Below are positions 15,130 to 40,007 of a stretch of DNA of 54,643 nucleotides, in pieces. Under the pieces are notes generated by a model. The model was not told the DNA's origin, made no database searches, and saw only the letters and a list, made by a program, of their open reading frames with translations. The translations under genes were made by a program, and so were the position numbers. The DNA is taken from the NCBI GenBank assembly GCA_022340565.1, contig JAJDNR010000153.1, forward strand, positions 1 to 54,643. Direction: 5' to 3'. This DNA comes from Desulfofustis sp. Lineage in GTDB: Bacteria > Desulfobacterota > Desulfobulbia > Desulfobulbales > Desulfocapsaceae. Numbering within the stretch: the stretch's first letter is position 1; each line of letters opens with the position of its first letter.

Positions 15130-15170
15130 GCCGGCCGGCCCAGGGTGCTAAAACCGATCGGCCGGCCGGC
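15130..15170. terminator. GC-rich inverted repeat between convergent genes
   Basis: An 11-base arm (15130-15140, GCCGGCCGGCC) pairs perfectly with 15160-15170 across a 19-base loop. It lies between the stop of the small gene at 15102 and the convergent Grx-FTR gene, whose last codons it overlaps. There is no U-run on either side, so it may act as a transcript-end stabiliser or a weak bidirectional terminator. Confidence 0.4.
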
Positions 15171-15723
15171 GTTCCGGCACCTCCAGGTGATCTACCTCAC
15201 CGGCATTCCAGGCGGGGCTCACATATAACTGACAAAAGCAGGCCCCATACTCCCTGACATCGGGTTCCCGATATACGCACGGACAGATGATATCACGGTC
15301 CTTTTCACGATCACCGGAAGCGAGCCGGCAGGGGCAGGACATATACCCGTAACGGTCTTTGTTTGTAAGCAGCGCGCGAAGAAGATCGAAGGTTCTTTCC
15401 CTGTCTTTATTGAACGGATAGCCCTTGGCTGTGTGTATTTTTTTAAGCGTTTCGTACAACTCGTCGACCTCGGTACGAATTCCAATTGCCTCTTTTATCT
15501 CTTGCGGTTTGAAGCCGACAATGACCGTGTCGTCCACCCGAACGGTCGGAAACGAGCATTGAGGATTGATCTTTTTGAGTTCATCTACCAGGTTCCCGCG
15601 CGCGTCATCCTCTAGCAGGTCGGCATCGACCGCCACATGTTTGACGCCGAGATCAGTGAGCATTTTTTTTATCGCCTGGCAATACGTGCAGGTGCTCAGG
15701 CTATAGAGCTTAACCGTTTTCAT
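15148..15723 (-). CDS. Glutaredoxin fused to ferredoxin:thioredoxin reductase catalytic chain
   Basis: 191-residue redox fusion. Residues 1-80 form a glutaredoxin/NrdH-like domain with the active site STCTYCQAIKKML (CxxC) and the cis-Pro region CSFPTVRVDD. Residues 105-180 match the catalytic beta chain of ferredoxin:thioredoxin reductase: a CPC, a second CPC and a CFC (usually CHC) hold a 4Fe-4S cluster and the redox disulfide. This probably passes electrons from ferredoxin to the attached glutaredoxin. The frame opens at 15756, but GAGGAG at 15733-15738 before the ATG at 15723 fits best. The His of the usual CHC is Phe here. It is last in a minus-strand series with UvsE, the selenoprotein and an antiporter. 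Confidence 0.85.
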   Translation of the reverse strand: MKTVKLYSLSTCTYCQAIKKMLTDLGVKHVAVDADLLEDDARGNLVDELKKINPQCSFPTVRVDDTVIVGFKPQEIKEAIGIRTEVDELYETLKKIHTAKGYPFNKDRERTFDLLRALLTNKDRYGYMSCPCRLASGDREKDRDIICPCVYREPDVREYGACFCQLYVSPAWNAGEVDHLEVPERRPADRF

Positions 15724-15858
15724 ATGACCGCACTCCTCGTTTTGCATGACATACACCGGCCACAGAACGCCGGCGCTCGATCATTTCTGATACCGAATGT
15801 ATGATGTTTTTCTCGCACAAGCCAGCCAAAACTGCCTGGCCAGCAGCTTCGGTTATGG

Positions 15859-16776
15859 TCATGCATCGCTGGCACGCAGACCGAAATGATCCATCAGCCG
15901 GACTACGGCAAGCTCCTTGGCCTTTGCCTCCACGTCGATCGTAGCGCGCAGCGGCAGCCAGATGCTGGGAACATCGACGGGATCGATATAATCGGCATGG
16001 GGGCGGAGGTTGTCTGCGTGCCATCCGTGCCGCGGCGAGCTGATGTGAAAATAGGGTTCCTGACCGCGTCCGACCCAGGTTTCCATGCACGCGGCGGTCG
16101 CCGCATCGACCGTCAGGCGGTCGGGCAGGCAGCGGTGGTGATGAACATCGTAGACAAACGGGATTTTCAGTCGGCGGCACAACGGCAGCAGATCGGCCGG
16201 GCTGTAGGTGAGGTCGTCGTTTTCCAGGGTCAATCGCTTCCGGACCCGTTTTGAAAGTAGTCTGAAATTCGACGCAAAGCGCTCCAACGCGGCCGTTTTA
16301 TCTCCATAGGCCCCGCCCCCGTGAATATTGATCACTTCGGCGCCGATCAATTCTGCGAGCATCCCCTGGTACTCGAGCTCTTCGATCGTCTTTTCAACAA
16401 CCCCGGTGCGGGGCGATGAAAGCACATTAAACTGGTCGGGGTGGAGACTGAGCCTGATGTCGTGTTCCCGCCGGTACCGGTTGATTCGTGACGACAGTGC
16501 CGCCACCTGGTCCGCTCCGGGCAGGTCGGCGACGCTATAGCCGACATCCGGATGAGTATATCTCGGAAAAAGAGGGGAAAGCACCCTGAAGGCCCGGATA
16601 TCTCTCGAATCGATCCATTTCAGTGCAGCCAGCAGACTGTTCAGGTTCTCGGTACAGAGTGCCGAGAGCTTTGCCAGTTGGGCCGGCCGATTCATTGACT
16701 CGAGATGTCTGGCGGTGGTCTGCGCGAAAGATACCGGCTGCTCCCTGAACATACAGCAGAGCCCGAATCTGAGCAT
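15859..16776 (-). CDS. uvsE: UV DNA damage endonuclease UvsE/UVDE
   Basis: 305-residue TIM-barrel endonuclease that nicks DNA 5' to UV photoproducts and some other lesions and uses divalent metals. Diagnostic stretches are RFGLCCMF at the N-terminus, RVLSPLFPRYTHPDVGY, RLSLHPDQFNVLSSP, the metal-ligand block EVINIHGGGAYGDKTAALER, LTLENDDLTYSPADLLPLCR and PFVYDVHHHRC. The His and Glu/Asp metal ligands are in place and the length is normal. GAGGAATAAG lies before the ATG. It starts 48 bases after the selenoprotein stop, so the two are likely co-transcribed, which suggests a light- or oxidant-stress group. Confidence 0.95.
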   Translation of the reverse strand: MLRFGLCCMFREQPVSFAQTTARHLESMNRPAQLAKLSALCTENLNSLLAALKWIDSRDIRAFRVLSPLFPRYTHPDVGYSVADLPGADQVAALSSRINRYRREHDIRLSLHPDQFNVLSSPRTGVVEKTIEELEYQGMLAELIGAEVINIHGGGAYGDKTAALERFASNFRLLSKRVRKRLTLENDDLTYSPADLLPLCRRLKIPFVYDVHHHRCLPDRLTVDAATAACMETWVGRGQEPYFHISSPRHGWHADNLRPHADYIDPVDVPSIWLPLRATIDVEAKAKELAVVRLMDHFGLRASDA

Positions 16777-16824: not shown

Positions 16825-17340
16825 TCAGGAAGCGCCAAGCAATTGCTCGATCGACGGGTGATCTCCCGCCTTTCTGCTGCTGAAGCGAAACAGGAAGCGG
16901 CCAGCGGTATCGACTACCAAGGCCCCGCCTAGCTGCATGATATCTCCACGCACCGCTCCCGGGCGATAACCCGCCCGCAGTGCCCTGATCGCCCCGGTAA
17001 ACGGTTGCCAGCCGACGAGGCCCGCAATGCTATTCCCGAACCCGAGAAATGTAAAGGACTCAAGCGCTGGATCGGTAAGCAGCGTGCCGCCGTAGCCGGT
17101 TTGTTCCCGCAACCCGGGAAGCGCTGAAGGCTCGCTCGAACCAATAACAACGAGGTGGCGGTTGTTGCGGGCAAAATCGTTTTCGTGTGCGGCAAGCTCA
17201 GCAACCTGCTGACGACAGAACATTCATCCGAGATGTCTGACGAAAACGAGTACCGCGGTCTGCCGCTCCCACAGGCGACCCATCACCACCTGTTCACCAG
17301 ATTCGCTGAAAAGGGTGATGCTTTCAAAACTATCCTTCAT
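16825..17340 (-). CDS. Peroxiredoxin-like selenoprotein with in-frame UGA (UxxC active site)
   Basis: I read this as one 171-residue gene through a TGA at 17224-17226, giving selenocysteine at residue 39. The sequence runs QTAVLVFVRHLG, then U, then MFCRQQVAELAAHENDF. In the AhpC/TSA-like PRXL2 (SelU/SelL-like) family the same place reads RH-F-G-C-x-F-C-R, so U39 replaces the first Cys and C42 is the partner. Both halves continue one thioredoxin fold (LVVIGSSEPSALPG, then LLTDPALESFTFLGFG, then GGALVVDTAGRFLFRF), and no other reading is sensible. A SECIS-like hairpin begins 11 bases after the TGA. The start at 17340 has AGAGG upstream; a GGGAG-led ATG further upstream (near 17406) is possible. 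The function is probably thiol- or selenol-based peroxide or disulfide chemistry. It lies between the antiporter and uvsE. Confidence 0.88.
17198..17212 (-). promoter_or_regulatory. SECIS-like hairpin for the UGA at 17224-17226
   Basis: On the coding (minus) strand, 11 bases after the TGA, TCAGCA pairs perfectly with TGCTGA around a GGT loop. Bacterial SECIS elements bind SelB and need a short stem with a GGU-type apical loop about 16-37 bases after the UGA. Here the loop begins 17 bases after it, close to the classic fdhF spacing. Confidence 0.8.
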
Positions 17341-37211: not shown

Positions 37212-40007
37212 ATGGCCATTAGCAAACACAGAAAACCCGCTCCGGGTAAAACGGTGTCCAGCGGCCGGAGGGTTACGCTCAACCCGAAGGTAGCCAGGAG
37301 ATCGTTTCTGAAACTATCTGCTGCCACCGCGGCGTTGTCCGGTGCGGCAATGACCACCAAACTGACCGGCAAGGCGGTCGCGGCGGAAGCCACGCCGGCT
37401 TACAAAGACTCGGAAACCGTACGGACCATCTGCACGTATTGTGCGGTTGGGTGCGGAATCGAGGCAGAAGTTCAGAACGGCGTATGGGTTCGCCAGGAAG
37501 TGGCCGCCGACCACCCGGTTTCCCGCGGTGCGCATTGCTGTAAGGGTGCCGGCGCGATCGACATGGTGATCAGCGAAAAGCGGCTGAAGAACCCGATGAA
37601 ACGCGTCAACGGCAAATGGACCAACCTGACCTGGGACCAGGCCATCGACGAGATTACCGCCAAGCTCACCGAAATCCGCGATAACAACGGCCCCGACGCC
37701 CTGCATTTCAACGGCAGCGCCAAGGTATCCACCGAGATGGCCTATCTGCAGAGGAAATTTGCTGCCTTCTGGGGGTCCAACAACATCGATCACCAGGCCC
37801 GAATCTGACACTCCACAACGGTGGCAGGTGTCGCCAATACCTGGGGTTACGGAGCAATGACCAACAGCCTGAACGACATCAGGCATGCCAAATCAATGAT
37901 TTTCATCGGATCCAACGCAACCGAGGCGCATCCGGTTTCCATGCAGCACATTCTGCATGCGAAAGAGGTGAACAACGCCCCGCTCATCGTTGTCGATCCG
38001 CGCTTTACGAAGCTGGCCGCCAAGGCCACAGAATATGTACGGATCCGGCCCGGCACCGACTGTGCCTTCATGATGGGTCTAATCAATGAAATCATCGCCA
38101 ACGGCTGGGAGGACAAGGAATTCATCCGCACCCGCGTAGCCGGATACGAAGAAATGGTCGAGGTTGCCAAGCACTACACGCCGGAAGTGGTGGAGAACAT
38201 CACCGGCATTCCTGCCAAGCAGACCAGGCGGGTAGCGGACATTCTGGCCAAAAGCCGGCCCACCTCGCTGACCTGGTGCATGGGCGGCACCCAGCACCAT
38301 ATCGGCTCGTCGATAACTCGGTCCTTCTGTATCCTCCAGCTAGTCCTCGGCAACATGGGCAAATCGGGCGGCGGCACCAACATCTTCCGTGGCCACGACA
38401 ACGTCCAGGGCGCCACCGACATGTGCGTGCTGGCCGACAACCTGCCGGGCTACTACGGGCTCGCCGAGGGGTCCTGGAAGCACTGGTGCCGGGTCTGGGA
38501 CGTCGACTACGACTCTATCGCGTCCAGATTCGCCAGCAAGGAGTGGATGGAAAGCAAAGGCTTTTCGCTGGCCCGCTGGTATGAAGGCGTGCTTGGCGAG
38601 GAGAAGATTGAGTCGCCGTCGCCGATCAAAGCGATGATCCAGTGGGGCTGCGGTTCCAACTCCAATTCGCAGTACAACCGGGTGGTCAAGGCGCTGAACA
38701 TGCTCGACCTGCTGGTTGTCATCGATCCGTTCCCGACCATCGTTGCGGCCGTGACCAAGACCGACAATATCTACCTGCTGCCGAGCGCCAGCCAGTACGA
38801 GACCTCCGGCTCGGTTACCTCGACCTCCCGCCAGATCCAGTGGCGGTTCAAGGTGGTCGACCCGGTCTATGACTCCAAGGACGACTACGAGATCATGTCC
38901 CTGCTGGTCAGCAAGCTCGGGTTCGCCGACGAATTCTACAAGAATATCAAGGAAGTGCCTGAAGACATTACCCGGGAGATCAACAAGGGAACCCTGACCA
39001 TCGGCTACAACGGTCAGACGCCCGAGCGGATCAAGGCTCACATGGAAAACTGGCATACCTTCGATATCGACGACCTGCAGGCCAAGGGCGGTCCCTGCGA
39101 CGGCGACTACTATGGTATGCCGTGGCCATGCTGGACCACCGAGCACCCCGGCACCCCGATCCTCTACGACATCTCAAAACCGGTGGCCAAGGGCGGACTG
39201 CCGTTCAGGAACCGCTTCGGCGACGTCACCACCTATGTGATGACCGGCCGTGAAGAAGGTCAGCTGGCCGCCAAGGGGGTCTGCAACCCGGGCAGCGAGG
39301 TACAGGGAGGCTACTCCGAGTTCAAAGAGGTCGTTCCGGGAACTAACTGGAAGACGGATCTGTCACAGGAAACCATCAAAAACGCTATCAATCGCGGCAT
39401 GGCGCCGTTCGGCAACGCCCGGGCCCGCTGCGTGGTCTGGAACTTCCCCGATCAGGTGCCGATTCACCGTGAGCCGCTGCATTCGCCGCGGCCCGACCTG
39501 GTGGAGAAATACCCGACCTACGAGGACAAGGCCAACCATTTCAGGGTCGAAACCCGCTACAAGAGCGAGCAGAATCCCGACCTGGTCAAGCAGTATCCAT
39601 ACGTCCTCACCACCGGCCGCCAGGTCGAACACATGGGCGGCGGGGCCGAAACCAGGAGTTCCAAGTACCTCTCCGAGCTGCAGCCTGAGATGTACGTCGA
39701 AATCAATCCTCGACTGGCCAACGATCTCGGAATCCGCAAGGGCGACATGGTAATCGTCGAGTCTCCCGAGGGGGCAAAGATTACGGTCAAAGCCTTTATC
39801 ACCCCGCGTGTCGATGAAAAAACCATATTCCTGCCATTCCATTTTGCCGGCACCCTGATGGGCGAGTCCTACCTGAAGGACTACCCGGAAGGTCATGCAC
39901 CATATGTGCTCGGCGATCCCGGAAACACCGTGACGAACTATGGATATGACATCATCACACAGATCCAGGCCACCAAGGACGGTCTGTGTAAAGTGACCCG
40001 TGCGTAA
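37212..40007 (+). CDS. fdhA: Formate dehydrogenase catalytic subunit, selenocysteine-containing
   Basis: 931 residues when the TGA at 37806-37808 is read as selenocysteine (Sec199). The Tat signal is ARRSFLKLSAATAALSG. The first 4Fe-4S cluster site is CTYCAVGCG plus HCCKG. Around the TGA it reads NIDHQARI-U-HSTTVAGVANTWGYGAMTN, matching the Sec site of FdnG-type enzymes (U196 in E. coli FdnG). Downstream MGGTQHHIGSSITR, GNMGKSGGGTNIFRGHDNVQ and the C-terminal molybdopterin domain are normal. It oxidises formate to CO2 at a molybdenum or tungsten pterin. AGGAGG at 37197-37202 precedes the ATG at 37212. A SECIS-like hairpin follows the TGA. Naive calling would split the gene. Confidence 0.95.
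37820..37835 (+). promoter_or_regulatory. SECIS-like hairpin for the fdhA UGA
   Basis: Eleven bases after the TGA at 37806-37808, GGTGGC pairs with GTCGCC (two G-U wobbles) around an AGGT loop. The short stem with a GGU-containing tip, 17 bases after the UGA, fits a bacterial SECIS bound by SelB, much like the hairpin in the other selenoprotein of this window. Confidence 0.75.

Follow-up and report, generated by a model that had tools for sequence, protein, structure and literature searches.

The record of peroxiredoxin-like (Prx-like) selenoproteins with a UxxC active site goes back at least to 2005, when they were reported from the Sargasso Sea (PMC1088965), and they are also described in PMC2398784. 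A 2026 inventory of 119 selenoprotein families (PMC13188914) lists in its Table 1 the Prx-like thiol:disulfide oxidoreductases (PF00578, UxxC/UxxU) and a peroxiredoxin-like cd02970 (AhpC-TSA_2) selenoprotein entered with UxxS only; NF040769, the NCBIfam profile of SelL-related redox proteins, is not named there. SelL, the selenoprotein L of fish and invertebrates, carries two Sec residues in a UxxU motif (PMC3316567). The closest solved structure is that of human prostamide/prostaglandin F synthase (PGFS, or PRXL2B), a eukaryotic protein that uses Cys only and whose prostaglandin and prostamide substrates are not expected in the bacterium discussed here. Desulfobulbia, the class to which this bacterium belongs, is rich in selenoproteins, with 22 to 46 selenoprotein genes in three tabulated genomes (PMC12013277).

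The window, which is the whole 54,643-nucleotide stretch of Desulfofustis sp. DNA that was analysed, holds on its minus strand a gene of this kind together with the following features.

16825–17340, minus strand: SelL-related/PRXL2-like selenoprotein gene of 171 codons, counting the UGA as Sec39
17224–17226, minus strand: Sec codon UGA, whose residue U39 opens the UxxC active site and aligns with Sec or Cys of relatives and with C44 of human PGFS
17215–17217, minus strand: codon TGT for Cys42, which closes the UxxC pair and aligns with C47 of human PGFS
17198–17212, minus strand: proposed bacterial SECIS hairpin UCAGCA-GGU-UGCUGA, loop at 17206–17204, proposed from synonymous-site conservation and window-wide frequency
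16825–17223, minus strand: shortened 132-aa ORF of the ORF list, as a standard gene caller would give it, with its ATG directly 3' of the Sec UGA
15859–16776, minus strand: UvdE-type UV endonuclease, next gene downstream, which adjoins the Sec homologue in L037 too
15148–15756, minus strand: glutaredoxin/ferredoxin-thioredoxin-reductase beta fusion, candidate redox partner

From its ATG at 17340 to a terminal TGA at 16827–16825 the gene forms a single frame, interrupted only by the TGA at 17226–17224, and reading this UGA as U gives a protein of 171 residues (MKDSFES...FVRHLGUMFCRQQVAEL...). The preliminary description had seen two minus-strand frames parted by that TGA alone and had predicted that automatic calling would split the gene; both observations hold, as the frame reads through and the ORF list gives the 132-aa part alone, leaving the active-site Sec outside.

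The fold and the family are consistent with one another. The protein scores 34.7 bits against the Pfam AhpC-TSA_2/PRXL2 family (PF13911), above the gathering cut-off of 27, and 109.3 bits against NF040769, below the curated cut-off of 120, as do four further members of its clade (103–114 bits, all below 120). Sec-containing sister subfamilies from the same order exceed this cut-off (L041, 198 bits; L040, 186; L036, 168), and all 22 members of sequence set A1 match NF040769 along their length. The window clade departs from the profile in its motif, U-x-[FIL]-C-RQQVAEL instead of ULPC, and from the sister subfamilies in a SECIS that lies 8 nt nearer the UGA. With this subfamily the SelL-related selenoproteins come to include a clade slightly under the curated profile cut-off. 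The earlier PRXL2/SelL-like label is therefore apt in the sense of SelL-related, a Prx-like kinship carried by the NCBIfam name and by a Sec in the active-site pair, but not in the sense of SelL proper, since the window protein and its clade have UxxC and not the UxxU diselenide pair.

An AlphaFold2 model built from the window protein and 53 Cys relatives (pLDDT 93) places U39 directly before a helix spanning residues 40–51, a predicted thioredoxin fold in which the redox pair opens the first active-site helix. Human PGFS is the best solved relative both by sequence (9us9, E 5.7e-10) and by fold: a Foldseek search with the model ranked first the entry 9usa (TM-score 0.82, 24% identity), a C44S/C47S mutant of PGFS in which the serines fall opposite U39 and C42 in the alignment, so that the C44-x-x-C47 pair of PGFS matches U39-x-x-C42. 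In the Prx-like selenoproteins of the inventory, too, Sec leads the redox pair of a Prx-like thioredoxin fold, and the cd02970 form is set apart by its table description, being UxxS where the window protein is UxxC. The preliminary description placed the UxxC variant in a little-studied family, which the 2005 report of Prx-like UxxC selenoproteins corrects. The gene is a further member of an already known kind of selenium enzyme, its subfamily falling slightly outside the curated profile, and it brings no new mechanism.

The in-frame UGA and the hairpin that follows it

Homologues of the protein occur in 54 of 258 genomes of the same class, nearly all with exactly one in-frame TGA, and in every Sec homologue read out this TGA occupies the identical codon with the frame open on both sides. 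Relatives from other phyla, more than 70 of which were inspected, have Cys at the position of Sec39. A Cys-pattern scan of named genomes returned 422 Cys relatives from Planctomycetota, Chloroflexota, Armatimonadota, Bacteroidota, Myxococcota and other phyla; the pattern of this second, alignment-based scan demanded Cys, so that Cys relatives were all it could return and it shows Cys forms to be common but says nothing on other forms. A first scan of the named genomes, with the single window protein as query, gave no match, and neither did a plasmid search. Across a 54-row alignment R35, H36, G38, C/U39, C42 and R43 are invariant, and Cys42 is also invariant across sequence sets A1 and A5. The alignment proposed in the preliminary description, which had placed the UGA at the first active-site Cys (RHLG-U-MFCR), thus finds Sec (as TGA) or Cys exactly there, the arrangement expected of a bacterial selenoprotein. 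Because about 50 other genomes carry the same TGA, a sequencing error is excluded. By this comparison, the insertion of Sec at residue 39 is strongly supported.

A 6-bp stem closing a GGU loop (UCAGCA-GGU-UGCUGA) starts exactly 11 nt 3' of the TGA, at 17212–17198, just as had been described. Its frequency was assessed on both strands of the window by counting TGAs followed, after 10–14 nt, by a perfect stem of at least 6 bp with a 3–5 nt loop containing GGU; seven of 1885 TGAs (0.37%) pass, and both proposed Sec codons (17226, minus strand, and 37806, plus strand) are among the seven. The hairpin after the Sec UGA is more than chance. The second of these codons belongs to a formate dehydrogenase gene, the clear second selenoprotein that the preliminary description had placed on the same fragment, whose hairpin has the same 11-nt offset and the same GGU.

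37212–40007, plus strand: molybdopterin formate dehydrogenase of FdhA type, the window's second selenoprotein, with 37212 as a proposed start
37806–37808, plus strand: in-frame UGA, the fdhA Sec codon (U)
37820–37835, plus strand: SECIS-like fdhA hairpin GGUGGC-AGGU-GUCGCC, 11 nt after the UGA

This FdhA also has a Tat-like RRSFLK signal.

Support for the hairpin comes from synonymous sites. Among 18 Sec homologues of the window clade, synonymous choice along the gene is mostly what codon usage predicts, and six codons after the second Cys, coinciding with the proposed hairpin, are nearly frozen: R43 is CGU in 17 of 18 (z 18.6), Q44 and Q45 are CAG in 18 of 18, V46 is GUU in 14 of 17 (z 7), A47 is GCU in 18 of 18 (z 21) and E48 is GAA in 14 of 16 (z 5). 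The largest departures outside these codons are at G38 (z 5.8) and G67 (z 3.6). A Cys homologue from the same order (L034) reads AGG CAG CAG GCA GGC at the site, without the hairpin sequence. Its protein has the same sequence as L077, which belongs to a Desulfobulbus MAG (Desulfobulbaceae, Thermodesulfobacteriota), and by this match Desulfobulbales is the most likely source of the window. Pair counts within the window clade carry little information, since four of the six stem pairs never vary. Folding energy was set aside as evidence: the minimum free energy fold prefers an overlapping GCAGGUU/AGCUUGC stem, and its z-score against shuffles is near zero. There is thus a hairpin just 3' of the UGA with G in its apical loop, though without support from the minimum free energy fold, and the earlier SECIS proposal is sustained by synonymous freezing and by covariation in sister subfamilies (see below), but not by covariation in its own clade or by folding energy. 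A UxxS relative from elsewhere in the phylum (L182, genome G610, 1474–2073), close to the window clade in the tree, has a stem whose outer pair is compensated from U-A to G-C, and is probably the UxxS form of the literature.

Selenocysteine machinery and other readings of the UGA

The weakest point of this account is the genome itself. In the genome bin, 94% complete at 3.3 Mb in 225 contigs, profile searches for selA, selB and selD found no true match, nor did a search with a close SelA protein as query. A tRNA-Sec gene (selC, L013) lies at the extreme end of contig C204 and is cut by the contig end; its 84 nt differ by one base from the tRNA-SeC(UCA) of the same-genus genome G156, itself confirmed by ARAGORN, before the contig stops. 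The other tRNA-Sec candidates in the genome were Trp, Ser, Tyr, Leu and Met tRNAs. The claim in the preliminary description that the machinery must exist thus has partial support, from the truncated selC and from sel genes in the same genus, whereas the bin lacks selA, selB and selD.

This pattern admits the reading that the species has lost its Sec machinery, so that the UGA is now a stop and the gene a decaying, shortened relic, a reading for which the missing selA, selB and selD speak directly. Against it, the frame is intact on both sides of the UGA, the SECIS codons are unchanged, the fdhA gene of the same window also retains its UGA and hairpin, and selC is present, though cut by the contig end. 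The assembly, moreover, has comparable gaps: of EF-Tu, an essential gene, there are just short initial or final fragments, the final ones beginning at contig base 2, so that assembly gaps did swallow essential genes. Within the order, in G130 (L212) and the same-genus G159 (L217), selA adjoins an rRNA operon, divergent from the 16S rRNA gene, and rRNA genes are a usual assembly break point. Many relatives have a selA match that starts no more than about 900 nt from a contig end, and the rRNA neighbourhood may explain why selA is often near contig ends or absent from bins.

Sel genes are otherwise common among relatives. Within the genus, selA occurs in G156, G157 and G159, selB in G158, selC in G156 and G159, and selD, itself with an in-frame TGA, in all four other genomes; class-wide, selB is above cut-off in 215 of 258 genomes and selA in 213 of 258. 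With selC truncated, EF-Tu in pieces, selA near rRNA operons and sel genes in the genus, the absence from the bin is likelier to reflect incomplete assembly than true loss, and decay of the gene is improbable. The absence remains the main weakness, since the missing genes are not all neighbours: in G156 selA is not beside selC but on a different contig, so one lost contig cannot explain all of them. Four genomes assembled in one or two contigs (G115, G119, G128 and G129) have selB and no recognisable selA, and three of them (G119, G128 and G129) also have homologues with an in-frame TGA; in these, either assembly has masked or damaged selA, or the organisms make Sec in another way.

Reading of the UGA by other means, whether by a suppressor tRNA, by a code in which UGA is Trp or Cys, or by leaky read-through, is known elsewhere and could hold the frame open. 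It sits poorly with an in-frame UGA that always falls at the Cys/Sec catalytic site, with genes that also terminate in UGA (the selenoprotein gene itself at 16827–16825), with a tRNA-Sec(UCA) in this genome and in same-genus relatives and with the frozen synonymous codons 3' of the UGA, and is scarcely credible. A division into two genes, with an upstream ORF of 38 aa and a protein of 132 aa restarting at the ATG directly after the TGA, is as hard to credit, for although TGAATG permits termination-reinitiation and the 132-aa ORF is on the ORF list, most relatives have GTN, CTN or other codons than ATG after the TGA, and the split would take away the active-site residue kept by Cys homologues. 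The gene is very probably a genuine selenoprotein of the PRXL2 branch, in which Sec39 would be inserted by SelB and tRNA-Sec at the hairpin to form a redox-active U39/C42 pair.

Two hairpin positions and the history of the Sec site

The sister clade with the ULPC motif, together with L036, L038 and L039, has another hairpin with an AGUU loop, 8 nt further from the UGA (the GGU loop lies 17 nt and the AGUU loop 25 nt after it). Here covariation is informative: 95.8% of cells are paired, 31 cells are changed on both sides, none of 500 shuffles scored as high, and slid controls were far lower. Sister Sec subfamilies in which this AGUU-loop hairpin covaries include L036, L038–L046, L193 and L195–L200. 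In L036 either hairpin could form, so that this sequence is a possible intermediate between the two SECIS positions.

A tree of 109 proteins, built with the trait residue masked, requires at least five Sec/Cys changes, three of them forced by well-supported branches, and in an 80-protein tree from which the longest branches were removed a single Sec clade was rejected (p-AU 2.2e-5). In these trees Cys sampling is biased by the search pattern, which required the second Cys to be preceded by F, I or L and so under-sampled the Cys relatives of the ULPC clade, and gain and loss of Sec are indistinguishable. It is tentatively proposed, at somewhat short of even confidence, that one site acquired Sec, or exchanged it with Cys, on several occasions and that a SECIS was built at either of two places, two non-homologous signals recoding the same UGA. 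The window protein (L001) is only 39–43% identical to homologues from its own genus (L027, L028 and L030), is not grouped with them in the tree, and may be a paralogue or horizontally acquired.

Proposed function and significance

Comparison with relatives supports the position of Sec, the fold, the UxxC pair and the recoding signal, and on this basis a catalytic cycle can be suggested. SelB with tRNA-Sec(UCA) would bind the GGU-loop hairpin 11 nt after the UGA and direct Sec into position 39, where the U39-x-x-C42 pair would stand at the point where the first helix in the Prx-like fold begins. From this fold and the known chemistry of UxxC and CxxC pairs, Sec39 would act as the attacking selenolate, reducing a peroxide or a disulfide-type substrate, and would then form a selenenyl-sulfide with Cys42 as the resolving residue, which a thioredoxin- or glutaredoxin-type donor would reduce to reset the enzyme. 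Two genes downstream of the selenoprotein gene, on the same strand, a glutaredoxin is fused to the catalytic chain of a ferredoxin-thioredoxin reductase. This protein (15148–15756) is a possible electron donor; UvdE stands between the two genes, and strand and gene order are what would suggest an operon. The putative role of the selenoprotein is most likely to protect its anaerobic host from oxidants.

What is new here is the subfamily, the repeated switching between Sec and Cys, and the presence of two SECIS positions within one family. A gene that standard calling cuts short is now corrected, and since its clade lies below the NF040769 cut-off, such genes would also escape notice elsewhere in Desulfobulbales. 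The family, in which Sec and Cys have switched several times and the SECIS takes two positions, opens the gain and movement of recoding signals to study.
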